Below are positions 4,576 through 39,163 of a stretch of DNA of 40,717 bases, one piece after another. The position numbers and the translations under genes were made by a program. The stretch comes from Prevotella sp. (GTDB taxonomy: Bacteria; Bacteroidota; Bacteroidia; Bacteroidales; Bacteroidaceae): contig JAFSYY010000011.1 of the NCBI GenBank assembly GCA_017455845.1, positions 1 through 40,717 on the forward strand, given 5' to 3'. Within the stretch, counting starts at the first letter, position 1; every line of letters begins with the position of its first letter. Below the pieces are notes generated by a model, which had not been told where the DNA came from, did not search any database, and saw nothing but the letters and a program-made list of their open reading frames with translations.

Positions 4576-6579
4576 TTAATTATCAGTTATTTTATCAAGT
4601 TCTTCTGATAGTTCTCCCCAGCGTTCCATCTCCTCGTCCAGTTGTCGCTTGGTGTCGGTGTACTCCGTGACGAGCGTCATGTCCGAGGCGTTCTTCGGAT
4701 CGCAGAGCAGGGTGTCGAGTTCTTTGAGGCGCTGCTCCATGCGGGCAATCTTCTTCTCACACTCTTCCACGGCTTTCTCCGCCCTTTTCTGGCGTTTCTG
4801 CTGTTCCTTGTGCTCGGTGTAGGATTCTTTGGAGGTGAGAGGTGAGGGGTGAGGGGTGAGAGGTGAGGGGTGAGGGGTGAGAGAATAGTTTTGCTGTTCT
4901 GGCTTCTCACCTCTCACCTCTATCCTCTCACCTCTCACCTCTATCCTCTCACCTCTGTCACGCAGATAGTCATAGATACCGCCGATGTGCTCTCTGACCT
5001 TGCCGCCGCCAAACTCAAACACCTTGGTCACCAGGCCGTCGAGGAACTCACGGTCGTGAGAGACGATGATGGCGGTGCCGTCGAAAGCACGGATAGCCTC
5101 TTTCAGCACGTCCTTTGAAGGCATGTCGAGGTGGTTGGTAGGCTCGTCGAGTATCAGCAGGTTGACAGGCTCCAGGAGCAGGCGTATCATCGCCAGACGG
5201 CTGCGCTCACCGCCGCTGAGCACCTTGACTTTCTTTTCCGACGCCTCGCCGCCGAACATAAAGGCACCCAGGATGTCGTTGATGCGCAGGCGGATATCGC
5301 CCGTGGCCACGTTGTCGATGGTCTGGAACACCGTGAGCGACTCGTCAAGCAACTGTGCCTGGTTCTGGGCAAAATAGCCTATCTGCACGTTATGTCCTAT
5401 CTTCAGGTTGCCTTCAAAGGGTATCTCGCCCATGATACATTTCACCAGCGTAGACTTTCCCTCGCCGTTCTTGCCGACGAAGGCCACCTTCTCGCCTCGC
5501 TTGATAGTCAGGTTAACGTGGTCGAAGACCAGGTGAGAGGCGAGGGGTGAGGGGTGAGAGGTGAGAGGATACTCTTTTTTCACTTCGTCGCAAATCACCG
5601 GGTAGTCGCCTGAGCGCAGACAGGGCGGGAACTTCAGGTGCATGGCCGAGTTGTCCACCTCGTCGACCTCGATAATCTCCATCTTCTCCAACTGACGCAA
5701 ACGCTGCTGAACCTGAACGGCCTTGGTGGCCTTATAACGGAAACGCTCCACAAACTCACGGATGTCGGCCATCTCCTTCTGCTGGTTCTCATAGGCACGC
5801 AGTTGCTGTTCGCGGCGCTCCTTGCGCAGCGTTACATACTCGTCGTATTTCACACGATAGTCTATCACCTGTCCGCATGAAATCTCCAGCGTGCGGTTCG
5901 ACACATTATTTATAAATGCACGGTCGTGGCTCACCAGCACAACGGCACCGCTCCAGGTGGCCAGCAGTTGCTCCAGCCATTGTATGGACTCGATGTCGAG
6001 GTGGTTGGTAGGCTCGTCGAGCAACAGCACGTCAGGCCGGCGCAGCAGTATCTTGGCCAGTTCTATTCGCATGCGCCAGCCGCCGGAGAACTCACTGGTA
6101 GGGCGCCCGAAGTCGCTACGCTCGAAGCCCAGGCCCATCAGCGTTCGCTCTAACTCAGCCTCATAGCCCTCGGCTCCCAGCATCTGATAGCGGTCATGCT
6201 CATTAGTAAACCTTTCCACTAACGCCATATACTCTTCGCTCTCATAATCAGTACGTTCCGACAACTGTCGCTCCATCCTTTTTATGCGGTCGGCCATCTT
6301 CTGGATGTCGGCAAAGGCTTTCTGAGCCTCCTGCCTCACGGTGGTGTCGTCTTGCAGAATCATCACCTGAGGCAGATAGCCTATGGTCGTTTCACTTGCC
6401 ACACTCACCGTGCCTGCCGTAGGCCGTTCCATGCCACAGAGTATCTTCAGCAAGGTAGACTTGCCGGCACCGTTTTTACCAACGAGCGCAATGCGCTCCT
6501 TGTTGTTGATGACAAAGGTCGCATCGCTGAACAGGGGCTTCACCCCGAACTCCACTTTCAGTCCTTCTACAGAAATCAT
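4576..6579 (-). CDS. ABC-F family ATPase (Uup/YheS-like translation factor)
   Basis: A soluble protein with two ABC domains and no membrane segment, of the ribosome-associated ABC-F class. Walker A motifs are G-K-N-G-A-G-K-S-T (residues 34-42) and G-K-N-G-E-G-K-S-T in the second half; both halves have an S-G-G signature and L-D-E-P-T-N-H-L-D. A charged C-terminal coiled coil (about residues 585-667) is Uup-like. I set the start at the ATG at 6579 because a longer frame to 6627 would run through the promoter at 6617-6624. Heptanucleotide arrays lie in frame at residues 339-350, just before the second ABC domain, and at 543-583, in the linker before the coiled coil, giving low-complexity R-G-E-R-I-E-V and L-T-P-H-P-S-P repeats. 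Confidence 0.92.
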   Translation of the reverse strand: MISVEGLKVEFGVKPLFSDATFVINNKERIALVGKNGAGKSTLLKILCGMERPTAGTVSVASETTIGYLPQVMILQDDTTVRQEAQKAFADIQKMADRIKRMERQLSERTDYESEEYMALVERFTNEHDRYQMLGAEGYEAELERTLMGLGFERSDFGRPTSEFSGGWRMRIELAKILLRRPDVLLLDEPTNHLDIESIQWLEQLLATWSGAVVLVSHDRAFINNVSNRTLEISCGQVIDYRVKYDEYVTLRKERREQQLRAYENQQKEMADIREFVERFRYKATKAVQVQQRLRQLEKMEIIEVDEVDNSAMHLKFPPCLRSGDYPVICDEVKKEYPLTSHPSPLASHLVFDHVNLTIKRGEKVAFVGKNGEGKSTLVKCIMGEIPFEGNLKIGHNVQIGYFAQNQAQLLDESLTVFQTIDNVATGDIRLRINDILGAFMFGGEASEKKVKVLSGGERSRLAMIRLLLEPVNLLILDEPTNHLDMPSKDVLKEAIRAFDGTAIIVSHDREFLDGLVTKVFEFGGGKVREHIGGIYDYLRDRGERIEVRGERIEVRGEKPEQQNYSLTPHPSPLTPHPSPLTSKESYTEHKEQQKRQKRAEKAVEECEKKIARMEQRLKELDTLLCDPKNASDMTLVTEYTDTKRQLDEEMERWGELSEELDKITDN
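4832..4953. repeat. Two opposed heptad arrays inside the ABC-F gene
   Basis: Seven GAGGTGA/GGGGTGA heptads (4832-4880) face seven TCTCACC-type heptads (4905-4953) across a 24-bp core, forming a large imperfect inverted repeat in frame in the coding sequence. In the right array every third heptad is TCTATCC; on the coding strand this turns what would be in-frame TGA into ATA. Confidence 0.9.
5531..5565. repeat. Heptad array inside the ABC-F gene
   Basis: Five heptads (AGGTGAG, AGGCGAG, GGGTGAG twice, AGGTGAG). The coding strand reads them in the stop-free orientation as L-T-S-H-P-S-P-L-A-S-H, immediately before the second ABC domain. Confidence 0.88.
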
Positions 6580-6616
6580 ATTAATCGCTGTCGCTGCTAT
6601 CAATGCTATTTTGCCG

Positions 6617-6648
6617 CAAAGGTACAATGAAAATCCGTCTCAACCAAA
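6617..6648 (-). promoter_or_regulatory. Promoter of the ABC-F / M13 peptidase pair
   Basis: Minus-strand TACCTTTG at 6624-6617 with TTTG at 6648-6645, spaced 20 bp. It lies about 38 bp upstream of the ATG chosen at 6579. Confidence 0.65.
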
Positions 6649-9795: not shown

Positions 9796-9982
9796 AGGGA
9801 CCGTCTCGGTTCGATCGGGATACTCATCAAATAACGTTGAAAACCGGGCTGTCTTCTCTTGTCAATGGCGGGCCACTATCCAAGCGTTCACAAAATGCCG
9901 GTGGATTACAAAGACAGAGAGCACCCACAACCTGTGATAAAGGAGTTTTCATCACATCACCCTGGCGGTCCCTTTCTTTTTT
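9796..9982 (+). ncRNA. Candidate structured RNA with 8-bp closing stem and U-tract
   Basis: AGGGACCG at 9796-9803 pairs perfectly with CGGTCCCT at 9966-9973, and the latter runs directly into TTCTTTTTT. Inside are a 5-bp hairpin with a 7-nt GTTCGAT loop (9804-9820, one G-U pair), a 7-bp helix CTGTCTT/AAGACAG (9849-9855 with 9911-9917) enclosing a small hairpin (GCGTT/AATGC), and a 6-bp hairpin TGTGAT/ATCACA (9933-9938 with 9951-9956): a closed multibranch fold. It begins 12 bp after the regulator stop codon and lies upstream of ribE. It lacks the FMN-riboswitch conserved boxes and I cannot assign a family. It could be a leader element, a 3'-UTR-derived sRNA or an elaborate terminator. Confidence 0.45.
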
Positions 9983-9984
9983 AG

Positions 9985-10019
9985 TTTAGAGTTTAGAGTT
10001 TAGAGTTTAGAGTTTAGAG
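9985..10019. repeat. Intergenic heptad array, five TTTAGAG units
   Basis: Five perfect TTTAGAG heptads directly after the candidate RNA's U-tract and before ribE. Same unit length as the arrays found inside genes elsewhere in the window. Confidence 0.9.
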
Positions 10020-10065
10020 TTTAAAAGTATCGGCTACGCCGAGTAAAAATTTAAAGTTAAGAATT

Positions 10066-13775: not shown

Positions 13776-13781
13776 AACCTT

Positions 13782-13837
13782 AACTATGAACTATGAATTA
13801 TGAATTATGAACTATGAACTGTGAACTATGAACTGCA
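13782..13837. repeat. Heptad array of eight AACTATG-type units
   Basis: AACTATG and variants (AATTATG, AACTGTG) repeat eight times. The array fills the gap between the phosphatidyltransferase and ATP-grasp genes and runs into the 3' end of the latter, encoding its final V-Q-F-I-V-H-S-S. Confidence 0.92.
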
Positions 13838-16715: not shown

Positions 16716-18236
16716 ATGGAAAACGAGTTCGAATTAATCGCCAAAACGTTCATGGGACTGGAACCTGTGCTGGCGAAAGAGTTGACCCAATTGGGAGCCA
16801 ACAACGTGGTAGTAGGTAGACGGATGGTGACGTTTACGGGTAACAAGGAAATGATGTACCGTGCCAACTTCTCGCTGCATACGGCCATCAAGATACTGAA
16901 GCCCATACAGCGCTTCAAGGCACAGAGTGCCGATGATGTCTACGAGGGAATCAAAGAGATTGACTGGAGTGAATATTTGGACAACAACAGCACGTTTGCT
17001 GTCGATGCTGTGGTGTTCTCGGAAGAGTTCCGCCATTCTAAGTTCGTGAGTTACAAGGTGAAGGATGCCATCGTCGACCAGTTCAAAGAACGAACAGGAG
17101 GCAGGCCAAACATCTCTGTGGCTAACCCTGACCTCAGACTACACATCCATATTGCCGACGTGGCACCCGGCAAGAGCGAGTGTACGCTATGCCTCGACTC
17201 CAGCGGTGAGTCGCTCCATAGGCGCGGCTACCGACAGGAGAGCGTAGAAGCCCCGCTCAACGAGGTACTGGCAGCCGGCATGATCCTGCTAACAGGATGG
17301 CAAGGAGACACCGACTTTATCGACCCCATGTGCGGCTCGGGCACTCTGCTTATAGAGGCAGCCCTCATAGCCCGCAACATGGCACCAGGATTGTTCCGCA
17401 AAGAGTATGCCTTCGAGAAATGGCCCGACTTCGATGCCGAACTCTTCGACCAGATATACAACGATGAATCCAAGGAGCGCGAGTTCAAGCACCATATCTA
17501 TGGCTATGACATCGATATGAAGGCTGTCAACACGGCACGCCTGAACATCAAGGCGGCAGGACTGACTGCCGACATCACCGTCGAGCAGCAGGACTTCAAG
17601 GACTTCCAACAGCCCAAGGAGAAGAGCATCCTCGTGTGCAACCCGCCCTACGGCGAGCGCATCTCCACGCCCGACCTGCTGGGCACTTACCGAATGATTG
17701 GAGAGCGTCTGAAGCACCAGTTCCTCAACAACGACGCATGGATTCTCTCCTATCGAGAGGAATGTTTCGACCAGATAGGCCTGAAGCCATCCATCAAGAT
17801 TCCCGTCTATAACGGTTCGCTGGAATGTGAGTTCCGCAAGTACCAGATCTTCGACGGCAAACTGAAGAACTTCCGCAGCGAAGGCGGCAGCATAAAGACT
17901 GATGAAGAAAAGCACCAGATGGCCGAGAAGCACCGCTTCAAGAAGAACCGCGAGTTTAAGCAACGGCTCGATGAACAAGAGGAGAATGAAAACAACGACA
18001 TTCGCTCGTTTACCTTCCATCGGCACGATCTGGAATCCAGGCCCACAAGAGAATCCAGACAATCCAGAGAATCCAGGAATCCTAAAGAGTCAAGAGAATT
18101 TAGAGAGTCAAGAGAATATAGAGAGTCAAGAAAACCCAGAGATTACAGAGACGCCAAAAACAACCGTGGCGGACACGAGCGTTTCGACCGCAGCGGAGGC
18201 AAGCGTAACAAACGATTCAATCATGATGATGAGTAA
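16716..18236 (+). CDS. rlmL: THUMP-domain 23S rRNA methyltransferase (RlmL-like)
   Basis: A SAM-dependent guanine-N2 methyltransferase of the RlmL type. It has an N-terminal THUMP RNA-binding domain (about 1-155), a SAM-binding D-P-M-C-G-S-G-T-L motif starting at Asp203 and the catalytic N-P-P-Y at 309-312. It corresponds to the RlmL half only; the RlmK half of E. coli RlmKL is absent. Beyond about residue 390 there is a 115-residue charged tail rich in R-E-S-R repeats and ending in an RGG-like G-G-K-R-N-K-R-F. The tail is low-complexity, encoded by roughly 9-bp AGAGAATCC-like repeats, and probably disordered and RNA-binding. The last codons overlap the start of the S9 peptidase, giving likely translational coupling. 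Confidence 0.88.
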   Translation: MENEFELIAKTFMGLEPVLAKELTQLGANNVVVGRRMVTFTGNKEMMYRANFSLHTAIKILKPIQRFKAQSADDVYEGIKEIDWSEYLDNNSTFAVDAVVFSEEFRHSKFVSYKVKDAIVDQFKERTGGRPNISVANPDLRLHIHIADVAPGKSECTLCLDSSGESLHRRGYRQESVEAPLNEVLAAGMILLTGWQGDTDFIDPMCGSGTLLIEAALIARNMAPGLFRKEYAFEKWPDFDAELFDQIYNDESKEREFKHHIYGYDIDMKAVNTARLNIKAAGLTADITVEQQDFKDFQQPKEKSILVCNPPYGERISTPDLLGTYRMIGERLKHQFLNNDAWILSYREECFDQIGLKPSIKIPVYNGSLECEFRKYQIFDGKLKNFRSEGGSIKTDEEKHQMAEKHRFKKNREFKQRLDEQEENENNDIRSFTFHRHDLESRPTRESRQSRESRNPKESREFRESREYRESRKPRDYRDAKNNRGGHERFDRSGGKRNKRFNHDDE

Positions 18237-20460: not shown

Positions 20461-20557
20461 AATAGCGTCCGTGCCGGCGGGTTTTCCAGTACGCCAATAG
20501 CGTCCGTGCCGGCGGGTTTTCCAGTACGCCAATAGCGTCCGTGCCGGCGGGTTTTCC
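20461..20557. repeat. Three 35-bp repeats downstream of the S9 peptidase
   Basis: Two complete copies (20461-20495, 20496-20530) and a third that starts at 20531 and runs, after the GGTTTTCC motif, into the closing arm of a terminator hairpin. The first two carry only the left arm CCGGCGGG with no matching right arm next to it, so they look like duplicated terminator halves. Confidence 0.9.
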
Positions 20558-23233: not shown

Positions 23234-24199
23234 TCAATGGTTCAATAAGAACCTGACTACGAGAGGTAAATGGTCGCTGAAGCCACGCTGAGAGGCATAG
23301 CCTTGGAAAGTGCGCCGCGGCCGTTTACCTCCGTATTTTGTCTCTTCCTCAAGCAAAAAGGGGGCATCGTTGATATAGGCAGTGTCCACCTTATTATATA
23401 ATATAGGCGACGCCAGCACATGATCCAGTGAATGCCAGTCACCCCGATAACGGTAGTTTCCCTTTGCACCGTTTCTTCCCTTGGCGTTGCGCGTCACATT
23501 CTTCAAACCGCTGCCGTAGAGCGTCAGCAAGGCCGGACTATCGTGATAGTCGTTGAAATCGCCCGTAACAAGTATCTGTGCATCATCACCGAGTGTGGTA
23601 ACATACCGCTGCAGTTGACGGGCTACCTGCATGCGGAAAGGCCGCGACTCACGTTCACCGCCATAGCGACTGGGACTGTGCACCACAAAGACATGAAGGG
23701 TGTCACCCGAAAGACAGCAGCCCTTGACATAGAGGATGTCACGCGTAGGACGCATACCCGGCAATGGCGGCACCTCCAGATAGTCATAGCACAGAGGACG
23801 AAAATGTACTGGCTGGTAAAGGAGCGCAACGTCTATCCCGCGCACATCGGCCGACTCAGTCATCAGATACTGATAACCGGCATGACGGAGCAAAGACCTG
23901 CGGGTGAGGTCGCGCAGCACGGAGTCGTTCTCTACCTCGACCAAAGCCACCAGGTCGGGCAACGCCTCGGCACACGACAGTATTTCCTGTCCTATGCGGT
24001 TTATCTTCCCCCAATATTTGCTGGTTGTCCAATGACGCGACCCGTCGGGCAGGAATTCCATGTCCTGCTTCGACGGGTCGTGGCGTGTATCAAACAGATT
24101 CTCGCAGTTCAACTCCACGAGAGTAATGATTGAGCCTGGACGAGCGGCTGCCGCACTGGAAAACACCAGTACCATCAGCACTGCACATCGCAAAAGCAT
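23234..24199 (-). CDS. Secreted endonuclease/exonuclease/phosphatase (EEP) family protein
   Basis: A 321-residue protein with an N-terminal signal peptide (M-L-L-R-C-A-V-L-M to about A-A-A-A at 19) and the EEP fold: L-N-C-E-N-L-F-D, metal ligand Glu in V-E-V-E-N, G-D-F-N-D-Y-H-D and terminal F-S-D-H-L-P. Such exported Bacteroidetes proteins may be nucleases or phosphodiesterases for extracellular DNA, RNA or phospholipid; the substrate is not predictable. The ATG at 24199 is preferred. A GTG at 24229 lies in a heptad array and would put a charged stretch before the signal peptide. It is the last gene of the leftward group starting at 27991 and ends 4 bp from convergent galE. Confidence 0.85.
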   Translation of the reverse strand: MLLRCAVLMVLVFSSAAAARPGSIITLVELNCENLFDTRHDPSKQDMEFLPDGSRHWTTSKYWGKINRIGQEILSCAEALPDLVALVEVENDSVLRDLTRRSLLRHAGYQYLMTESADVRGIDVALLYQPVHFRPLCYDYLEVPPLPGMRPTRDILYVKGCCLSGDTLHVFVVHSPSRYGGERESRPFRMQVARQLQRYVTTLGDDAQILVTGDFNDYHDSPALLTLYGSGLKNVTRNAKGRNGAKGNYRYRGDWHSLDHVLASPILYNKVDTAYINDAPFLLEEETKYGGKRPRRTFQGYASQRGFSDHLPLVVRFLLNH

Positions 24200-24213
24200 A
24201 GCAGCGGAAGCAA

Positions 24214-24234
24214 ATTCTTCACTCTTCACTTTTC
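24214..24234. repeat. Heptad array before the EEP gene
   Basis: Three heptads (ATTCTTC, ACTCTTC, ACTTTTC) between the peptide transporter and the EEP gene. Short, but the same AGTGAAG family as arrays inside purL. Confidence 0.65.
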
Positions 24235-24250
24235 ACTAGGGTGAAGTCCG

Positions 24251-29074: not shown

Positions 29075-29083
29075 TCTATCTTT

Positions 29084-29151
29084 AAACCACGAATTGCACA
29101 AATATTAAACCACGAATTGCACAAATATTAAACCACGAATTGCACAAATTT
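29084..29151. repeat. Three 23-bp repeats between the two chrA genes
   Basis: Copies start at 29084, 29107 and 29130, built on CCACGAATTGCACAAAT. Related CACGAATT sequence continues to the end of the upstream gene. The block separates the two halves of what is normally a tightly spaced gene pair. Confidence 0.9.
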
Positions 29152-29158
29152 CACGAAT

Positions 29159-29746
29159 CTACTCCGTGGGTTGAATATATTTACCATAGACCCAGCCGCC
29201 TAGGCCGGCCAGGATGATGATATATATTGGCGACACTCCCATAAGCCAGATGGCCAGTGCCCCCGCAACGGGTATCCAGCAGTTGGTCCATGAGATCTTG
29301 GCGCTCCGGGCCAAATTGAACGTCGGCACGGCGATGAGAGCCACCACAGCCGGACGTATGCCCCGGAACATGGCGGCCACCACGGGGTTGTCTTCAAACT
29401 GGCGGAAGAACATGGCAATAGCCAGGATGATGAGGAAGGAAGGCAGGGCGGTGCCAAAAGCCGCTGCGACAGCACCGCGAATCCTACACAGTTTATAGCC
29501 AATAAAGATGCTGATGTTGATGGCAAAGACACCAGGACAACTCTGGGCAATGGCGATAAGATCCAAGAACTCATCTTTCGCCACCCACTGCTTCTTGTTG
29601 ACCACCTCTTCCTCTATCAACGGTATCATGGCATATCCGCCACCGAGGGTGAACAGCCCCACCTTAAAGAAGGTTGTGAAAAGCCCACCCAAGCCCTCCC
29701 AAAGGGAGGGATGTTTAGTTACTTTTTCTGCTGACAACTCTTGCAT
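29159..29746 (-). CDS. ChrA-type half-protein 2, N-terminus partly repeat-derived
   Basis: A 195-residue CHR-family membrane protein with F-T-L-G-G-G-Y-A-M-I-P-L and S-C-P-G-V-F-A-I-N; partner of the gene downstream. Residues about 9-23 (V-T-K-H-P-S-L-W-E-G-L-G-G-L-F) are encoded by the palindromic repeat at 29680-29722, which also occurs as non-coding DNA at 39121-39163. Either the element was inserted in frame after the native first codons, or translation starts at a TTG inside the repeat. The membrane core from F-F-K-V-G onward is normal. It follows purL by 50 bp and may be cotranscribed with it. Confidence 0.85.
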   Translation of the reverse strand: MQELSAEKVTKHPSLWEGLGGLFTTFFKVGLFTLGGGYAMIPLIEEEVVNKKQWVAKDEFLDLIAIAQSCPGVFAINISIFIGYKLCRIRGAVAAAFGTALPSFLIILAIAMFFRQFEDNPVVAAMFRGIRPAVVALIAVPTFNLARSAKISWTNCWIPVAGALAIWLMGVSPIYIIILAGLGGWVYGKYIQPTE

Positions 29747-29796: not shown

Positions 29797-32700
29797 CTAC
29801 CTATTCATTTCCACCCACTTTCTCGCGTTCACGAAAGCCTCGATCCACGGGGTCACCTCGTCGCTCTTGCGATGGGCAGGATACCACGCACACTGCCAGG
29901 GGAACACGGCACGCTCCAGATGGGGCATCATGCACAGATGACGACCATCGGCAGAGCAGATACCGGCCACGTCGTAGTCAGAGCCGTTGGGGTTGGCAGG
30001 ATAGCCGTGGTAGTTGTACTTGGCAACCACGTTGTAGGCACTCTCCTTTTCCGGCAGAGAGAACTTTCCTTCTCCGTGAGCCACCCATAGTCCGAGTTTG
30101 CTGCCGCTCAGCGAGCCGAACATCACGCTGCTGTTCTGAGGTATCTGCAAGGTGATGAAGCCGCTCTCGAACTTGTGAGAATCATTATGAAGCATCTTGG
30201 CACGACGGGCGGTAGCAAATTCTTCATTCTTCATTCTTAATTCTTCATTTTCACAAAGCCCCAGTTCCACCATCAACTGACAACCGTTACAGATGCCCAG
30301 CGAGAGGGTGTTCTTACGGGCATAGAACTTGTCCAAGGCCTCCTGGGCCTTGGGGTTGAAGAGGAAGGCTCCTGCCCAGCCCTTGGCAGAGCCTAGCACA
30401 TCGGAATTTGAAAAACCACCGCAGAACACAATCATGTTGATATCCTCGAGGGTCTCGCGACCACTGATCAAGTCGGTCATCATCACATCCTTCACGTCGA
30501 AGCCTGCCAGATAGAGGCAGTAAGCCATCTCACGCTCACCGTTGGTTCCCTTCTCGCGGATGATGGCGGCCTTGGGAAGTGAAGAGTGAAGAGTGAAGGG
30601 TGAAGAATCTTTCCAGCGGTCGGGGTTGAGGCCGTACTGAGCCAGCGTGCCGGTGAAGCCCTTCGGGAACTTCATCTCCAGAGGCTGCTTCTTGTAGTTC
30701 TCGAAGCGCTCCTTGGCCTTGCCGTTGAAACTCTGCTTGCGGTCCAGCAGATAAGAGGTCTTATACCAGATATCGCGCAAGGCATCGATGTCGAATTTTA
30801 GAGGTGAGAGGTGAGAGGTGAGAGTTGAGAGGTCACAGACAATCTCGATGGTGCGGCTGTCCTCCACAGGATAACCTATCTTAGCATAGCCGATACCCTG
30901 CTCCTCCATGAACTCTTTGAATTCAAACTTATGCTCGTCGCTCACCTCGATGACCACGCCCGGATTCTCAGCGAAGAGGGTCTTCACGATGTCGCCATCC
31001 TTGGAGATGTCGTGCAGGTTGATATGCAGGCCGCCCATGGTATTGGCGAAGCACATCTCAAGCAGCGTCGTAATAAGGCCACCGGCCGAGATGTCGTGAC
31101 CAGCCAGGATCCAGCCCTTCTCTATCATCTGCTGAACAGCCACGAAAGCATCGGCAAAATACTCGGCGTTCTTTACCGTAGGCACATCGTCGCCTACCTT
31201 ACCCAGGCTTTGGGCGAAGGCAGAACCGCCAAGACGCTGCTCGTCGAACGAGAAGTCGATATGATAGAGCGATGCATGCTTGTCGTTCACCAGTACGGGC
31301 GATACCACCTTCTTTATATCGCTCACCTCGCCACCGGCACTGACAATCACCGTACCCGGAGAGATAATCTTCTCGCCGTTGGGATATTGCTGACTCAACG
31401 ACAGCGAGTCCTTACCCGTGGGTACGTTGATATGCAGGTCGCAGCAGAAATCGCTCAGTGCCTTCACGCCAGCATACAGACGGGCATCCTCTCCCTCCTG
31501 CGAACGGCAGGGCCACATCCAGTTGGCAGAGAGCGAGACAAAGTCGAGATAGTCACCCCTCTCATTCCTCACTTCTCCTTTCTCATTTCTTCCAAGCGGT
31601 GCCCAGACAAGATTCGTCAAAGCCTCGGCCACAGAGAGCACGCTTCCGGCGGCAGGATCTGCCAAACCAGCCTGAGGCGCATGACCGATGGCCGTGGCAA
31701 TACCCTTCACGCCACGATAGTCGAGGGCCACGACACCACAGTCGCTCAACGGCAACTGTATCTCACCCTGACACTGCTGACGGGCTATCTTACCCGTCAC
31801 TGAGCGGTCTACCTTGTTGGTCAGCCAGTCCTTACATGCTACAGCCTCCAACTGGAGCACGCGCTCCAGGTATTCATTCATCTTATCCTGCGTGTAGGTC
31901 ACGTCCTCATAATGACGCTCAACGGTGTTATCGCGCATGACGGTCTTGGGCGAGTGGCCGAACATCTGAGCCACATCGAGGTCGAAAGGCTTCACACCAT
32001 CGCCCTGCTTGAACGAGAAATGGGCATCGCCGGTGGTCTCGCCGACGACATACAGCGGTGCACGCTCACGCTCGGCAATACGGCGAACATGCTCAATATG
32101 CTTCTCATCAATAAGCAAGCCCATACGCTCCTGACTCTCGTTGGCAATAATCTCCTTGCTTGAAAGGGTCTTGTCGCCGATAGGCAGTTTGGTCATATCT
32201 ATCTCGCCGCCACACTCCTCAACGAGTTCCGACAAGCAGTTCAAATGACCGGCAGAGCCATGGTCGTGGATAGACACCACGGGGTTCACATCTTCCTCGC
32301 AGAGCGCACGCACCAGGTTGTAGGCACGCTTCTGCATCTCCGGATTGGCACGCTGCACGGCGTTCAACTCGATGCCGTTAGAGTAGCGGCCAGTATCAAC
32401 CGACGACACAGAGCCGCCGCCCAGTCCGATGCGGTAGTTGTCACCACCGACGACGACGACCTTATTACCCTTCTGAGGCTCCTTCTTCAGACAGTCGCGC
32501 TTGGTGCCGTAGCCCACGCCACCAGCCAGCATGATGACCTTGTCGTAGGCGTACTTTGTAGAGGCGAGAGGTGACAGATGAGAGGTGAGAGATTTCTCCT
32601 GGTGTTCGAAGGTAAGCACCGACCCGCAAATCAACGGCTGACCAAATTTGTTGCCGAAGTCAGAAGCACCGTTAGAGGCCTTTATCAGGATCTGCTCTGG

Positions 32701-33678
32701 TGTCTGATACAGCCACTGGCGAACAGGCAAAATATCTTCCCAGTCTCTTTCGGCGGTAACAAGTTCTTCACTCTTCACTCCTAACTCTTCACTTAATCTT
32801 GGATAGGCCGTCATATAAACAGCGGTACCTGCAATCGGCCATGAGCCGACACCGCCGCCCATACGGTCGCGAATCTCGCCACCAGTACCCGTGGCAGCGC
32901 CGTTGAAGGGCTCCACCGTCGTGGGGAAGTTATGTGTCTCAGCCTTCAACGAGATGACGCTCTCAATCTCCTTCACCTGGAAATAGTCGCTTGTGCTCTG
33001 GTCTTTCGGCGCAAACTGCTCCACGACAGGCCCCTCTGCAAAAGCCACATTATCCTTGTAGGCCGAGAGAATCTTGTTGGGGTTCTCCTGCGTGGTCTTC
33101 TTGATCATGGCAAAGAGGCTCGACTCCATCTCCTTGCCATCGATGATAAACGTACCACCGAAAATCTTATGACGGCAGTGCTCAGAGTTGATCTGGGCAA
33201 AACCGAAGATTTCTGAGTCCGTCAAGGGACGGCCGTTCTGCTTCTCCAATCCATGCAGATACTCTATCTCCTCGGGCGAGAGAGCCAGTCCTTCCTGCTC
33301 GTTGTATTCCTCCAGATTATCCACGTACTTGATGGGCTCCGGCTTAATATTAACAGTAAAAATGTCCTGGTTGATGCCGTTGTACATGCGCTGCAACATC
33401 GGGTCGTGGTCAGCATCCATGCTCGAAACAGGAAAGTATTCCTCTATACGCGAAATGCCGCTGAGTCCCATGTTCTGCGTAATCTCAACGGCATTGGTCG
33501 ACCATGGGGTCACCATCTCGCGGCGCGGACCGACGAAGAATCCGTCTAACGTCTGGGCATCGTGCAACGTGGCACCGCCGTAAAGCCAACAAAGTTCCTG
33601 TACTTCTGTCTGAGCGAGTTGATGGTCCACCTGCGTGGCAATCACGCTCTGCTGTGGGGTCTTGAAGAAAAGAATCAT
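29797..33678 (-). CDS. purL: Phosphoribosylformylglycinamidine synthase (single-chain PurL)
   Basis: Fourth step of purine synthesis: converts FGAR to FGAM with glutamine and ATP. The 1293-residue large-type enzyme has the N-terminal PurS-like part, two AIR-synthetase-like halves (A-Q-I-N-S-E-H-C-R-H near residue 165, F-G-G-T-F) and a C-terminal class I amidotransferase with Cys1133 in G-I-C-N-G-C-Q and the H-G-E-G segment. Six in-frame heptad arrays add low-complexity peptides near residues 296-305, 364-373, 695-706, 949-960, 1025-1034 and 1145-1154. Family motifs around them are intact, so they sit in loops. The gene has its own promoter at 33713-33743 and is probably functional, being the only purL seen. 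Confidence 0.96.
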   Translation of the reverse strand: MILFFKTPQQSVIATQVDHQLAQTEVQELCWLYGGATLHDAQTLDGFFVGPRREMVTPWSTNAVEITQNMGLSGISRIEEYFPVSSMDADHDPMLQRMYNGINQDIFTVNIKPEPIKYVDNLEEYNEQEGLALSPEEIEYLHGLEKQNGRPLTDSEIFGFAQINSEHCRHKIFGGTFIIDGKEMESSLFAMIKKTTQENPNKILSAYKDNVAFAEGPVVEQFAPKDQSTSDYFQVKEIESVISLKAETHNFPTTVEPFNGAATGTGGEIRDRMGGGVGSWPIAGTAVYMTAYPRLSEELGVKSEELVTAERDWEDILPVRQWLYQTPEQILIKASNGASDFGNKFGQPLICGSVLTFEHQEKSLTSHLSPLASTKYAYDKVIMLAGGVGYGTKRDCLKKEPQKGNKVVVVGGDNYRIGLGGGSVSSVDTGRYSNGIELNAVQRANPEMQKRAYNLVRALCEEDVNPVVSIHDHGSAGHLNCLSELVEECGGEIDMTKLPIGDKTLSSKEIIANESQERMGLLIDEKHIEHVRRIAERERAPLYVVGETTGDAHFSFKQGDGVKPFDLDVAQMFGHSPKTVMRDNTVERHYEDVTYTQDKMNEYLERVLQLEAVACKDWLTNKVDRSVTGKIARQQCQGEIQLPLSDCGVVALDYRGVKGIATAIGHAPQAGLADPAAGSVLSVAEALTNLVWAPLGRNEKGEVRNERGDYLDFVSLSANWMWPCRSQEGEDARLYAGVKALSDFCCDLHINVPTGKDSLSLSQQYPNGEKIISPGTVIVSAGGEVSDIKKVVSPVLVNDKHASLYHIDFSFDEQRLGGSAFAQSLGKVGDDVPTVKNAEYFADAFVAVQQMIEKGWILAGHDISAGGLITTLLEMCFANTMGGLHINLHDISKDGDIVKTLFAENPGVVIEVSDEHKFEFKEFMEEQGIGYAKIGYPVEDSRTIEIVCDLSTLTSHLSPLKFDIDALRDIWYKTSYLLDRKQSFNGKAKERFENYKKQPLEMKFPKGFTGTLAQYGLNPDRWKDSSPFTLHSSLPKAAIIREKGTNGEREMAYCLYLAGFDVKDVMMTDLISGRETLEDINMIVFCGGFSNSDVLGSAKGWAGAFLFNPKAQEALDKFYARKNTLSLGICNGCQLMVELGLCENEELRMKNEEFATARRAKMLHNDSHKFESGFITLQIPQNSSVMFGSLSGSKLGLWVAHGEGKFSLPEKESAYNVVAKYNYHGYPANPNGSDYDVAGICSADGRHLCMMPHLERAVFPWQCAWYPAHRKSDEVTPWIEAFVNARKWVEMNR
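30219..30246. repeat. Heptad array in purL (AATGAAG type)
   Basis: Four heptads read as E-N-E-E-L-R-M-K-N-E-E-F. The second unit is AATTAAG, which gives TTA where an unaltered unit would put TGA in frame. Confidence 0.9.
30577..30604. repeat. Heptad array in purL (AGTGAAG type)
   Basis: Four heptads on the plus strand. The coding strand reads the stop-free complement as S-P-F-T-L-H-S-S-L-P. Confidence 0.9.
30801..30835. repeat. Heptad array in purL (GAGGTGA type)
   Basis: Five heptads (three perfect GAGGTGA). The coding strand reads S-T-L-T-S-H-L-S-P-L, stop-free in every phase. Confidence 0.9.
31561..31588. repeat. Heptad array in purL (AATGAGA type)
   Basis: Four heptads read as R-N-E-K-G-E-V-R-N-E-R. 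The unit in the stop phase is AAAGGAG, giving GGA in place of TGA. Confidence 0.9.
32561..32588. repeat. Heptad array in purL (GAGGTGA type)
   Basis: Four heptads (GAGGCGA, GAGGTGA, CAGATGA, GAGGTGA). The coding strand reads S-L-T-S-H-L-S-P-L-A-S. Confidence 0.9.
32765..32792. repeat. Heptad array in purL (AGTGAAG type)
   Basis: Four heptads read as S-E-E-L-G-V-K-S-E-E-L. The stop-phase unit is AGTTAGG, giving TTA in place of TGA. Confidence 0.9.
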
Positions 33679-33712
33679 ACTACTAATGTATAAGTTTTTT
33701 TAATTTTATCTG

Positions 33713-33743
33713 CAAAGGTACTAAATAATACTGACTTGGCAAA
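33713..33743 (-). promoter_or_regulatory. Promoter of purL
   Basis: Minus-strand TACCTTTG at 33720-33713 with TTTG at 33743-33740, spaced 19 bp; leader about 27 nt. No purine riboswitch or operator is recognisable in the leader. Confidence 0.7.
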
Positions 33744-33763
33744 GATATTTCACTTTTTTTTCG

Positions 33764-33771
33764 TACCTTTG
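33764..33771 (+). promoter_or_regulatory. -7 element of murF-alr
   Basis: TACCTTTG, 28 bp before the ATG at 33800, preceded by a run of T. The -33 motif is weak. Confidence 0.6.
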
Positions 33772-33799
33772 CACCATCGACTTATAAAAACCAGATGCT

Positions 33800-36415
33800 A
33801 TGATTTATACGATAGAAAAGGTGGCGACCCTGATTGGGGCACGCCGCTATGGTGAGAAAGAGGCAACCATCGGCTGGCTGCTGACCGACAGCCGCTCGTT
33901 ATGTTTCCCTGAGCAGACCATGTTCTTTGCTCTGCGTACCAAGCGTAACGACGGACATAAATTCATCGATGAACTGTATCGCCGTGGCGTCCGCTCGTTT
34001 GTGGTGGAGCAGGTGCCTGACGACTATCAGACCAACTACTCCGATGCCAATTTCCTGCGTGTGCCCTCGCCGCTGGCTGCCCTGCAGCGACTGGCAGAGC
34101 GCCATCGCGACGAGTTTAATATCCCTGTGGTGGGCATCACAGGCTCTAACGGAAAGACCTGGGTGAAGGAGTGGCTGTACCAGATTCTGATGCCTTCGAT
34201 GAAGGTGACACGCTCGCCCAAGAGTTATAACTCGCAAATCGGCGTGCCCCTGTCCGTGTGGCTGCTGAACGAGCAGACAAAGGTGGCGCTGTTCGAGGCG
34301 GGCATCAGCGAGCCAGGCGAGATGCTGGCACTCCACGACATCATCCAGCCTACCATTGGCGTGCTGACATCGCTGGGCAGTGCCCATCAAGAGAACTTCC
34401 GTACCATGGACGAGAAATGCATGGAGAAACTGCAACTGTTTCGTGACACAAAGGTAATCATCTATCCCTCGGACGATGATACCGTGAGCCGTTGTGTGCG
34501 CCGTTCGCAGTATCAGGGTGAGCGTATCGGCTGGTCACGGTTCAACGAGAAGGCCCCGATGTATGTCAAGGTGGAAGGTCAGCATGTGTCTTATATATAT
34601 AAAGGTGAGACGGAGGGCTGTTACGAGATTCCTTTCAGCAGTGAGGCTTCCATAGAGAACTCTATCACATGTGCGGCCGTCGCTCTTTATCTTGGCTTGA
34701 CGCCAGAGGTGATTGCCGAACGGATGAAGCAGTTGGAGCCTATAGCCATGCGCCTGGAGGTGAAGGAGGGTCAGCGCGGGCTGACGCTCATCAACGACTC
34801 CTACAATAGCGACATCAACTCACTGGATATCGCCCTTGACTTCATGAACCGAAGAGTTGAAAACAAACATCAAACATCAAGCATCAAACATCAAATCAAT
34901 AAGACACTGATACTGAGCGATATATACCAGAGTGGCGAAGCAGCAGTAGAACTCTATAAGGATGTGGCCGACCTGATCCAGAAGCGTGGTATAGACCGCT
35001 TCATAGGCATTGGCCCGGAGATTTCCAGCCAGGCATCGGTACTTACCTCCTGCTCCGCTCCCGCTAATGCACCGGACCGAAGCCCTTCGCCTCTCACCTC
35101 TCATTTCTTCAATGATGTGGAACAGTTCCTGCAAAGCAGCCTCTTCCGCTCGCTTCACGACGAGGTGGTGCTGCTAAAGGGTGCACGTTCGTTTGGCTTC
35201 GAGCGTATCAGCGAGATGCTGGAACAGAAGGTGCACGAGACCATCCTCGAGGTTGACCTGAACGCGCTGATCAGCAACCTGAACCATTTTCGCTCGTTCC
35301 TGAAGCCGGAGACCAAGATGGTGTGCATGATCAAGGCCGATGCCTACGGTGCCGGTGCGGTAGAGATTGCCAAGAGCCTGCAGGACCATCGCGTGGACTA
35401 TCTCGCCGTGGCAGTAGCCGACGAGGGCGTGACGCTTCGCAAGGCCGGCATCACGCAGAATATCATCGTGATGAACCCGGAGATGTCATCGTTCAAGACG
35501 CTCTTCGACTACGACCTGGAGCCGGAGGTCTACTCCTTCCGACTGATGAACGCCCTTATCAAGGCGGCACGGCGACAGGGCATCACAGGATGGCCCGTCC
35601 ACATCAAACTCGATACGGGCATGCACCGCCTGGGCTTCGACCCCAAGCAAGACCTTGACGAACTTATCGACTTGCTGAAACATCAGTCGGCCATCATTCC
35701 TCGCTCCATATTCTCGCATTTTGTGGGCTCCGACAGCGACGACTTCGACAGTTTCTCGGCACTCCAGTTCCAACGTTTCGACGAGGCCAGCAAGAAGATA
35801 CAAGCCGCCTTCACGCATAAAATCCTGCGCCACATGGATAATTCAGCGGGAATAGAGCATTTCCCTGAGCGTCAACTGGATATGTGCAGACTGGGCATAG
35901 GGCTGTACGGGGTAGAACCCTACCAAATGAGAAATGAGAAAGGAGAAAGGAGAAATGCCGGCGGCAGCCATTTCTCATTTAACATTTCAAATTCCTCATT
36001 ACTCACTTCTCATTCCTCATTTCTTCAATGTGTCAGCACATTGAAGACCACCATCCTGCAACTGCGCCATGTGCCCAAGGAGGAGACCGTGGGCTACAGC
36101 CGCAAGGGTATACTGACACGCGACAGCATTATTGCCGCCATCCCCATAGGCTATGCCGATGGTCTTAACCGACGACTCGGCAACCGCCACTGCTACTGCC
36201 TGGTGAACGGACAGAAGGCGGAGTACGTGGGCAATATCTGTATGGACGTGGCACTGATAGACGTGACCGACATCCCCTGCCAGGAGGGCGACAGCGTGGA
36301 GATATTCGGCAAGAACCTGCCCGTCACGGTGTTGAGCGAGGTGCTGGAGACCATCCCCTACGAGGTGCTTACCAGTGTGAGCAACCGCGTGAAGCGTGTC
36401 TACTTCCAAGACTGA
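33800..36415 (+). CDS. Bifunctional MurF (D-Ala-D-Ala ligase to UDP-MurNAc-tripeptide) / alanine racemase
   Basis: A fusion known from Bacteroidetes that couples D-alanine supply to its addition to the peptidoglycan precursor. The MurF half (about 1-475) has the ATP loop G-S-N-G-K-T (115-120) and N-D-S-Y-N-S. The alanine racemase half (about 490-871) has PLP lysine Lys512 in I-K-A-D-A-Y-G and catalytic Tyr766 in V-G-Y-S-R-K-G. At 871 residues it is somewhat longer than expected, explained by in-frame heptad arrays at about residues 356-365, 429-438 (beside an extra A/P-rich stretch) and 709-743. Catalytic motifs are intact and the product is essential, so the inserts must be tolerated. Own promoter; divergent from purL. 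Confidence 0.95.
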   Translation: MIYTIEKVATLIGARRYGEKEATIGWLLTDSRSLCFPEQTMFFALRTKRNDGHKFIDELYRRGVRSFVVEQVPDDYQTNYSDANFLRVPSPLAALQRLAERHRDEFNIPVVGITGSNGKTWVKEWLYQILMPSMKVTRSPKSYNSQIGVPLSVWLLNEQTKVALFEAGISEPGEMLALHDIIQPTIGVLTSLGSAHQENFRTMDEKCMEKLQLFRDTKVIIYPSDDDTVSRCVRRSQYQGERIGWSRFNEKAPMYVKVEGQHVSYIYKGETEGCYEIPFSSEASIENSITCAAVALYLGLTPEVIAERMKQLEPIAMRLEVKEGQRGLTLINDSYNSDINSLDIALDFMNRRVENKHQTSSIKHQINKTLILSDIYQSGEAAVELYKDVADLIQKRGIDRFIGIGPEISSQASVLTSCSAPANAPDRSPSPLTSHFFNDVEQFLQSSLFRSLHDEVVLLKGARSFGFERISEMLEQKVHETILEVDLNALISNLNHFRSFLKPETKMVCMIKADAYGAGAVEIAKSLQDHRVDYLAVAVADEGVTLRKAGITQNIIVMNPEMSSFKTLFDYDLEPEVYSFRLMNALIKAARRQGITGWPVHIKLDTGMHRLGFDPKQDLDELIDLLKHQSAIIPRSIFSHFVGSDSDDFDSFSALQFQRFDEASKKIQAAFTHKILRHMDNSAGIEHFPERQLDMCRLGIGLYGVEPYQMRNEKGERRNAGGSHFSFNISNSSLLTSHSSFLQCVSTLKTTILQLRHVPKEETVGYSRKGILTRDSIIAAIPIGYADGLNRRLGNRHCYCLVNGQKAEYVGNICMDVALIDVTDIPCQEGDSVEIFGKNLPVTVLSEVLETIPYEVLTSVSNRVKRVYFQD
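34867..34894. repeat. Heptad array in murF-alr (ACATCAA type)
   Basis: Four heptads (ACATCAA three times, GCATCAA once) read as Q-T-S-S-I-K-H-Q within the MurF half. Confidence 0.9.
35085..35112. repeat. Heptad array in murF-alr (TCTCACC type)
   Basis: Four related heptads (CTTCGCC, TCTCACC, TCTCATT, TCTTCAA) read as S-P-L-T-S-H-F-F close to the MurF/racemase junction. More degenerate than the others. Confidence 0.75.
35925..36028. repeat. Opposed heptad arrays inside the racemase domain
   Basis: Left arm of five AAATGAG-type heptads (35925-35959), a short CGGCGGCAG core, then about eight CATTTCT/CATTCCT-type heptads (35969-36028). AAATGAGAAATG (35925-35936) and CATTTCTCATTT (35969-35980) are perfect inverted repeats. 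About 35 residues are added in frame between G-V-E-P-Y and C-V-S-T-L-K-T. Confidence 0.9.
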
Positions 36416-36417
36416 GG

Positions 36418-36452
36418 ATAGTTCATAGTTCATAATTCATAGTTGATAGTTT
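36418..36452. repeat. Intergenic heptad array, five ATAGTTC-type units
   Basis: ATAGTTC, ATAGTTC, ATAATTC, ATAGTTG, ATAGTTT directly after the murF-alr stop. It is the reverse complement of the AACTATG family at 13782-13837. Confidence 0.9.
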
Positions 36453-39007: not shown

Positions 39008-39163
39008 AAAGCCCACCCAAGCCCTCCCAAAGGGAGGGATGTCTGTATAGATAATTTGGACGGGCTATTATATAGCAAACATTCATTATAATTAATAACT
39101 AAAAAACGGAGCACCCTAATGTAACTAAACATCCCTCCCTTTGGGAGGGCTTGGGTGGGCTTT
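39008..39163. repeat. MITE-like element with perfect 35-bp inverted termini
   Basis: The left end 39008-39042 (AAAGCCCACCC...) and right end 39129-39163 are exact reverse complements over 35 bp, enclosing 86 bp without an ORF. Each terminus itself contains CCTCCC-AAAGGGAGG. The right end stops 5 bp before the transporter ATG. A clear target duplication is not visible. Confidence 0.85.

Follow-up and report, generated by a model that had tools for sequence, protein, structure and literature searches.

Seven-base tandem repeats are known from several bacterial systems. The closest to the case reported here is the intervening sequence (IVS) of the 23S rRNA of Coxiella burnetii, described as 428 nt long, with a 28-bp terminal stem and an open reading frame (ORF) for the protein S23p, and with tandem GACAGAT heptamers, variable in number between strains, just 5' of the S23p start (PMC4990558). 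GACAGAT is a rotation of TGACAGA, that is, a TGANNNN unit. The TAACTGA repeats of Beggiatoaceae, Cyanobacteria and Bacteroidetes are treated in their description as free repeats, some of which lie inside ORFs (PMC4679880). The published descriptions on which we draw already cover the over-representation of heptamers, arrays of TAACTGA and of GGGAATC, heptamers paired in inverted orientation and the presence of heptamers in one rRNA IVS; further related work is found in PMC3372288, PMC3936711, PMC10053308 and PMC5524665. In this work we analysed a 40,717-nt stretch of DNA from Prevotella sp. (contig JAFSYY010000011.1, hereafter the window, meaning the whole stretch), in which arrays of 7-bp units interrupt the genes for PurL, for a MurF-Alr fusion and for an ABC-F protein. 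Since the Coxiella IVS has the same plan of arms and S23p gene with a TGANNNN unit, we read the arrays of the window, with a probability of roughly 0.7, as gene-less or one-armed copies of IVS-type selfish hairpin elements that invaded protein genes in frame, outside rRNA.

The window is contig 14 of a 124-contig, 2.43-Mb genome that is 68% complete and closely akin to rumen Prevotella genomes. A self-match scan of its 40.7 kb found 10 strict period-7 arrays, compared with 0 in 50 first-order Markov shuffles; the same scan found none at periods 4-6 and 0-1 arrays at each of periods 8-13. Tandem Repeats Finder (TRF) and the scan together confirm the arrays at the places where a first-pass annotation of the window had reported them: all six in PurL, the three in ABC-F, which lie outside the interval 30219..36028 that it had assigned to the feature, and the unit families between genes, which it had put at 9985, 13782, 24214 and 36418 and which were found at 9983, 13782, 24216 and 36418. 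The at least four arrays claimed for MurF-Alr come down to three clear ones by TRF and a weak fourth insert below its threshold, and the 7-bp units claimed to number about 4-9 per array are indeed 7-bp units, measured at 3.1-7.6 per array with intergenic arrays included. The reading frames of PurL, MurF-Alr and ABC-F stay open across all inserts, which are thus probably translated. The features are listed below; 'head' denotes a short motif at the end of an array, 'own-only' amino acids (aa) are those present in the protein of the window and absent from the relative compared, and a dot as strand means that none was assigned.

29797..33678, minus strand: PurL gene, 1293 codons, with six heptameric inserts
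32749..32793 (TRF 32765-32793), minus strand: PurL insert 1, TGAAGAG array, then what reads as a degenerate head, CTTGTTACCGCC; own-only 8 aa
32560..32595 (TRF 32560-32593), minus strand: PurL insert 2, TGAGAGG-family array (LTSHLSPL); own-only 9-10 aa
31549..31590 (TRF 31560-31590), minus strand: PurL insert 3, TGAGAAA-family array (EKGEVRNERGDY); own-only 12 aa
30794..30838 (TRF 30800-30833), minus strand: PurL insert 4, TGAGAGG-family array; own-only 7 aa
30573..30609 (TRF 30578-30606), minus strand: PurL insert 5, TGAAGAG array (PFTLHSSL); own-only 8 aa against G013
30209..30255 (TRF 30219-30253), minus strand: PurL insert 6, one-armed element, TGAAGAA array with phase-locked head TTTGCTACCGC
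33800..36415, plus strand: MurF-Alr fusion gene with heptameric inserts
34859..34900 (TRF 34864-34895), plus strand: MurF-Alr insert, ACATCAA array (HQTSSIKHQIN)
35057..35098, plus strand: MurF-Alr insert of 14 aa, weakly heptameric (SPSPLT), below the TRF threshold
35921..36024 (TRF 35925-35957 and 35970/35991-36022), plus strand: MurF-Alr insert, two-armed hairpin with TGAGAAA-type arms, in frame
4576..6627, minus strand: ABC-F gene; going by two of three relatives, the start may lie 13-15 codons further in
4828..4956 (TRF 4832-4883 and 4905-4956), strand dot: two-armed hairpin in frame in ABC-F, arms 4828-4885 and 4905-4956, 19-nt loop
5530..5572 (TRF 5531-5568), minus strand: ABC-F insert, TGAGAGG-family array (PLTSHPSPL)
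9973..10029 (TRF start 9983), strand dot: intergenic array of AGTTTAG units, by TRF and array scan
13778..13836, strand dot: array between genes, AACTATG units, equivalent to TGAACTA, by TRF and array scan
24203..24237 (TRF start 24216), minus strand: TGAAGAR array with a head variant at the 5' end of ORF 23234-24229, by TRF
36414..36452 (TRF start 36418), plus strand: array at the MurF-Alr stop codon, by TRF and array scan

Comparison with relatives bears out the clean insertions that the annotation had expected in PurL. The PurL of G013 (90.1% identical) is without all six inserts, each being own-only by 7-13 aa, and that of G022 (91.8% identical) is without five of them, insert 5 facing a shorter non-heptameric loop (net 5 aa); residues adjoining some inserts also differ from G013 and G022. 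Insert 6 has a near-identical counterpart in L001, L052, L025 and L067. For MurF-Alr the expectation holds against L013, L040 and L073 (82-86% identical), where the inserts are own-only except for the first, which is not among the differences of at least 4 aa from L013. For ABC-F, compared with the best 3 of 20 homologues, it holds in part: the array 5531-5568 is own-only against L187 and L188 and not against L189. Loops of equal length in non-repetitive DNA had been named as the finding that would speak for a different origin; most relatives have no loop at the PurL and MurF-Alr sites, and a loop of similar length is present opposite the ABC-F hairpin. Such presence or absence of in-frame arrays between species supports mobility.

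An alignment of 106 PurL proteins (the partial genes L099, L100, L102 and L105 excluded) places recurrent insertion sites near core positions 299, 354, 580, 917, 990 and 1100. Within the genus, 65 of 96 PurL sequences (that of the window and two near-identical pairs included) have an insert of at least 6 aa and 33 a heptameric one; none of 10 sequences from other families has a heptameric insert. At one and the same site different species have differing heptamer units or quite different GC-rich palindromes, so that the sites look tolerated by the protein rather than targeted by sequence. The open frames through the PurL inserts speak against excision being required there. The matches to PurL are split in G007 and G017, and arrays that break the frame were considered; no heptamer array lies at either junction, and both look like small deletions or assembly faults. 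Invertible promoters were also set aside, the spacers within the PurL inserts belonging to the insert itself.

The load of arrays is genome-wide. In a sample of 20 contig starts plus the window, 255 kb picked irrespective of arrays, we counted 85 period-7 arrays (33 per 100 kb), 12 of them in the window, compared with 0, 0, 2, 8, 13 and 5 arrays at periods 4, 5, 6, 8, 9 and 10; among the short tandem repeats of this genome, heptamers predominate. By comparison, G016, a single-contig genome of the same genus, has 2 period-7 arrays in 400 kb. The scan inside and outside coding sequences that the annotation had called for found arrays in both, and it corrects the view of the arrays as a feature of essential enzymes: intergenic DNA holds 56% of the 85, where 13% would be expected, and 32% are well within ORFs, where 71% would be. 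As the arrays avoid gene interiors and favour intergenic DNA, the in-frame cases that are tolerated seem to be what has survived of an invasion of the whole genome. The trinucleotide TGA is present in 267 of 370 consensus units, compared with 106 expected when units are shuffled. Units agree within one mismatch in 20.7% of array pairs from one locus and in 10.9% across loci, a modest effect, and the excess of period 21 in coding over intergenic arrays is weak (22 against 55 arrays, p 0.03). Nor are the arrays special to this species or to Prevotellaceae: TGANNNN arrays occur, patchily, in 161 of 200 genomes of the genus, where the number of hits ranges from 0 to 579 per genome, and among Bacteroidales in 147 of 247 genomes, from 112 of 167 genera.

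Many of the arrays are also not the simple heptamer repeats for which they had been taken. They resemble arms of hairpin elements that have a conserved end, and those relatives of the elements that bear a gene encode PF05635, the family of the 23S rRNA intervening-sequence protein (S23p). Among 315 arrays oriented on the purine-rich strand (near-balanced-purine arrays were dropped, and some rows are one PurL site in several species), the motif TTTGCTACCGC with up to 2 mismatches lies 3' of 39 and 5' of 1. It is locked in phase to the arrays, in the arrangement TGNNNNN-TTTGCTACCGC: 57 of the 67 copies in the genome of the window are phase-locked, and phased copies occur in 88 of 200 genus genomes, some of which have merely one or two hits, within the reach of chance, a control pattern giving at most 2 per genome. 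Elements with two heads, arranged arm-head-loop-head-arm, number about 27 distinct cases in nine genomes, and their loops, 11-115 nt long, vary between copies (30 rows less two second pairings and L220, a chance PurL site; most regions were fetched for two close heads). In a sample of 214 arrays from the genome of the window, partly picked for GAGGTGA arrays, close neighbours form 23 inverted, 5 direct and 15 unlike pairs (random pairs give 9.1% and 8.8%). The RNA of these hairpins is predicted to fold stably: z is -9.8 for the ABC-F hairpin (-77.8 kcal/mol), -3.9 for that of MurF-Alr and -9.5 to -13.7 for three further elements, hence -3.9 to -13.7 for all five short-loop elements. The idea that complete hairpins are excluded from coding DNA was dropped, since 23 paired arrays are coding and 23 intergenic, compared with 70 and 98 single ones (Fisher p 0.32). 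Separately, L255 has two hairpins about 640 bp apart (536-582 and 1220-1266) whose loops are reverse complements with one mismatch, possibly a recent copy in opposite orientation or a conversion.

The evidence that links the arms to a gene comes from PF05635. In three genomes, heads of the TTTGCTACCGC type stand about 390 bp apart at one orthologous locus, beside a gene that reads as LpxH-like, and the loop between them encodes a PF05635 protein. Our survey took in every PF05635 hit in ten genomes that bear arrays, picked so as to yield 30 loci and ranging from 17 to 579 in their number of TGANNNN hits. An array lies within 250 bp of 21 of the 25 full-length genes, some of which are mutually orthologous (L302/L318), and on both sides of 14, compared with 7.9% and 0.2% of random sham positions at the same loci (n=4027); without the previously seen L289, L302 and L318, the counts are 18 and 13 of 22. 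None of five partial, different PF05635 matches in these genomes has an array within that distance. Other ORFs of the genome of the window served as controls: arrays adjoin 6 of 38 ORFs of 300-450 bp, with none on both sides, 23 of 98 of 240-600 bp (5 on both sides, 0 inverted with like unit) and 140 of 304 longer ones (18 and 2, respectively), so that one adjoining array is common and a pair of like, inverted arms is not. By tblastn, loci that had been fetched for different purposes contain three PF05635 genes, all two-armed, two of these being one shared insertion. In all 17 two-armed gene-bearing elements, which are 427-560 bp long, the arms are inverted with a unit distance of 0-1 and the purine arm lies 5' of the gene; the mean unit distance is 0.41, compared with 2.25 for shuffled partners (0/2000). 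The genome of the window itself has four full-length PF05635 genes, each with at least one arm and two with both, namely L313 with head TTTGCTACCGC and L319 with head TTATGATTA. The former head is found in gene-bearing L300, L302, L305, L312, L318 and L313 and in short gene-less elements, and TTATGATTA is likewise common to L319 and short elements. An empty site is seen in L040, which is without the element common to L013 and L073. At the right end of the gene-bearing element of L013 (4562-4584), the flank CCGTCATCG-GATGT-CGATGACGG is an inverted copy of host flank such as fold-back synthesis might leave; this is a single case.

Similar elements are found on plasmids. A tblastn search with the S23p of L248 matched, among named records, 25 plasmids and 2 phage records, of which 17 were fetched (16 plasmids and 1 phage; some Nostoc loci are close kin). 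An array lies within 250 bp of the S23p-like gene in 14 of the 17 and on both sides in 10, compared with 1.7% and 0.19% of sham positions in 120 kb of six plasmids; four of five arrays in the plasmid background lie around or in another annotated four-helix-bundle gene. The two-armed elements come from Nostoc (5), Aulosira, Euhalothece, Dolichospermum and Planktothrix, all Cyanobacteria, and from Treponema saccharophilum, in which the two arms match poorly. At the same threshold Bernardetia, Chlorohelix, Pseudanabaena and Gloeocapsa are one-armed, and Monoglobus, one Nostoc and the phage scaffold have no array within 250 bp. The arms match better in inverted than in direct orientation in nine of the ten pairs, with at most one mismatch in seven. 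A scan of viral contigs gave no relative of this S23p. The four-helix-bundle genes on plasmids often adjoin restriction-modification, DISARM-like, helicase or cas1 genes (L323, L331, L332, L334, L335 and L336).

The gene-bearing element is a unit of 430-560 bp in which a purine-rich heptamer arm, mostly (TGANNNN)n and often with a short family-specific head, is followed by a PF05635 four-helix-bundle gene and by an inverted like arm. Most genomic copies would have lost, or never had, the gene, leaving short two-armed hairpins with differing loops or, more often, single arms; copies in protein genes would persist where the frame is open and the site tolerant, and would then be translated. Most arrays being single and headless, their descent from gene-bearing elements is suggested by the shared unit type and the shared genomes; the gene-less copies, too, would derive from such elements. 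The moving unit may be the hairpin of the transcript, with S23p handling the RNA and a host enzyme making the new copy. Because PF05635 resembles Avd of the diversity-generating retroelements, presentation of an RNA hairpin to a host reverse transcriptase is the route that we favour. That both arms share a unit suggests that one templates the other, so that the hairpin would keep the arms alike while 7-nt slippage sets their length.

Several observations weigh against this interpretation. TGA is absent from 103 of the 370 array units; 168 of the 214 arrays of our sample have no inverted partner within 200 bp, the remaining fifth being paired; no more than 98 of 424 array flanks match elsewhere, and most arrays are headless. 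Loops differ in nearly every copy, which plain copy-and-paste leaves unexplained. The ABC-F hairpin is not cleanly own-only, as L187, L188 and L189 have sequence of nearly equal length there (the own protein is up to 7 aa longer, in one stretch). No PF05635 relative was found in the window or in the sample loci of its genome, and none at E<=0.001 in the array-rich genomes G010 (near complete, 55 hits), G018, G054, G101 and G128. The empty site of L040 reveals no clear target-site duplication, and none is established elsewhere. Of the 30 PF05635 genes with the highest scores in the genus, 4 have an array near them, a rate close to that of random windows (6.4%), and the other 26 are unarmed; hence only part of the family is linked to arrays. 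Finally, the sham positions were drawn at random and not matched to intergenic DNA, and the correlations of array number with PF05635 (rho 0.50, n=199) and with the RAYT-like family discussed below are uncorrected for phylogeny.

Several other explanations of the arrays have to be considered. They could be independent microsatellites arising by ordinary replication slippage, 7 nt suiting the polymerase, of which selection retains those in frame; later papers reportedly credit the link between period 7 and the polymerase to Mrazek et al. 2007. The predominance of period 7 over other short periods, the wide variation of units within and between genomes and the many single arrays without a recognised head are all as this account would have them, and heptamers are, according to published work, the commonest long class of simple sequence repeat (SSR) in most genomes. 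Slippage may still govern how many units an arm has and produce some of the single arrays. It does not, however, predict a one-sided head locked in phase, inverted like-unit arms around PF05635 genes, or the range from 0 to hundreds of hits within one genus; for these reasons we set it aside as the sole cause and consider it unlikely as the general explanation. Loss of hairpin surveillance by SbcCD, which would let inverted repeats accumulate in some lineages, would account for the patchy distribution; the genomes show the reverse of what it predicts, SbcD passing the family threshold in 7 of the 17 array-rich genomes and in none of the 17 array-poor ones, and we regard this possibility as very improbable. 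An artefact of metagenome assembly or binning is brought to mind by contigs that start within arrays (L151, L152, L155), and had been named in the first-pass annotation as a possible refutation. It is scarcely credible, since of the four isolates whose genomes are represented at the named loci one, P. ruminicola KHT3 (L007), carries a heptameric insert in its PurL, near-identical inserts recur in several species, and arms are present on complete plasmids of isolates.

For the movement step itself, the main rival of the S23p route is an enzyme of the REP-associated tyrosine transposase (RAYT) type, REP being repetitive extragenic palindromes. RAYTs, which are HUH enzymes, move hairpins; acting in trans on single-stranded hairpin DNA, they could mobilise the heptamer elements with PF05635 as a mere passenger. 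A long multi-copy RAYT-like family is present in 108 of the 200 genomes of the genus; 93 of the 133 array-rich ones (at least 10 hits) have it, compared with 14 of 66 array-poor ones (odds ratio 8.6, rho 0.55). Nevertheless, PF05635 correlates as well and sits physically inside the arms, whereas no heptamer array lies within 1 kb of six long RAYT-like genes examined, four of which (L172, L173, L175 and L176) have, by eye, REP-like hairpins of their own downstream; moreover G010, G077, G079, G096, G132 and G140 are rich in arrays without the family. The RAYT-like genes, correlated with the arrays and yet lying away from them, were rejected as the parent element, and we judge this route quite unlikely.

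Returning to S23p hairpin elements as the source of the arrays, the resemblance to the Coxiella IVS as described (PMC4990558) extends to a length of about 430 nt, complementary stem-forming ends, a PF05635-type ORF in the loop, on the sense strand of the transcript, and TGANNNN-type heptamers 5' of that ORF. Inverted ends are found in 17 of 17 two-armed gene-bearing elements and not in the single arrays of the window, and a PF05635 ORF lies between them in relatives, including two of the four own-genome genes, and not in the copies of the window. Unlike rRNA IVSs, these elements lie in intergenic DNA and protein genes, in many copies, most of them gene-less; none of the copies in PurL, MurF-Alr, ABC-F and between genes is in helix 9, 25 or 45 of 23S rRNA, which is why we call them IVS-type and not rRNA IVSs. 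As tandem, dispersed 7-bp units they are heptameric SSRs, and they resemble the short tandemly repeated repetitive (STRR) sequences of cyanobacteria and the TAACTGA repeats, itself a TGANNNN unit, in being period-7 arrays, mostly intergenic and patchy. In the description of the latter (PMC4679880) we saw no hairpin pairing rule, head or S23p link; on the plasmids of Nostoc and related genera we find four-helix-bundle genes with like arms. The GGGAATC heptamers of Xanthomonas and Nostoc share period-7 arrays and some inverted pairs, and differ in being G-rich, intergenic and discussed as quadruplexes (PMC4692102). Rickettsia palindromic elements (RPEs) are, like ours, palindromic and in frame in unrelated protein genes; they differ by a conserved peptide, units, loops and peptides not being conserved here, and in the account given in PMC10969869 we saw for them neither heptamer arms nor an S23p parent. 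The kinship with RPEs and cyanobacterial heptamers that the first-pass annotation had proposed therefore holds in spirit, as do in-frame invasion and the intergenic families, with the three corrections made above. Head-bearing copies, through TTTGCTACCGC and TTATGATTA, share ends with a gene-bearing parent in the manner of miniature inverted-repeat transposable elements; S23p is not, to our knowledge, a known transposase. REP/RAYT systems also consist of dispersed hairpins and co-occur with the arrays across genomes, and their hairpin sequence differs; no heptamer hairpin flanks the six RAYT-like genes. Among the matches listed in open-licence PubMed Central literature, no title or abstract joins heptamer arms to S23p genes outside rRNA, and within that scope heptamer arms around S23p genes, and gene-less copies invading protein genes in frame, appear to be new.

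If this is correct, the invasion by IVS-type elements extends to ordinary genes and is the source of many bacterial seven-letter repeats that have had no explanation. This joins three questions: the abundance of 7-bp repeats, S23p/IVS elements outside rRNA, and in-frame repeats in essential enzymes. It would also suggest how functioning proteins could acquire loops and signal peptides from selfish DNA. The element being now definable by its arms, head, gene and empty site, its mobility, its processing by RNase III and the role of S23p can be tested directly. A wider proposal, which we advance tentatively and think somewhat more apt to fail than to hold, is that S23p hairpin elements form a selfish class across phyla and that their arms lie behind much of what has long been unexplained among bacterial heptanucleotide repeats, the STRRs of cyanobacteria among them. 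In this view 23S rRNA IVSs would be members that happened to land in rRNA, S23p, as an Avd relative, would drive the spread by way of an RNA hairpin and a reverse transcriptase that the element borrows, and the loops and signal peptides of ordinary proteins in rumen Prevotella would still be undergoing remodelling.

Some further observations concern the arrays and other repeats. By eye, heptamer arrays encode the hydrophobic core of apparent signal or lipoprotein signal peptides, for example MTVKLLGAAFFILHASCFISCSDWDD and MKMTVKLLGAALFILHSSFFISCADFF, at L151:276-1971, L165:14533-16453, L163:9297-12609, L117:12137-12169, L128:577-609 and L129:10107-10135, an apparent reuse of the repeat as an export signal. 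A second type of in-frame insert, at PurL sites near core 354, 864 and 917 of many relatives, consists of short GC-rich palindromes (CCCTCC..GGAGGG and GTGGC..GCCAC types), perhaps REP hairpins of RAYT-like genes such as those seen downstream of these genes in L172, L173 and L175. In the window, AAGCCCACCCC / GGGAGGG repeats lie at 29681-29702, 39009-39030 and 39141-39162, one of them at the N-terminus of an ORF that reads as ChrA-like (KHPSLWEGLGG). A low-complexity 9/18-bp repeat at 18033-18151 forms the C-terminal end of a putative rRNA methyltransferase (RESRESRE tail) and overlaps the start of the next ORF in a different frame. Further minisatellites, with 22-, 35- and 23-bp units, are at 1005-1126, 932-1001, 20461-20557 and 29082-29149; period 22 is frequent among relatives too (28 arrays).

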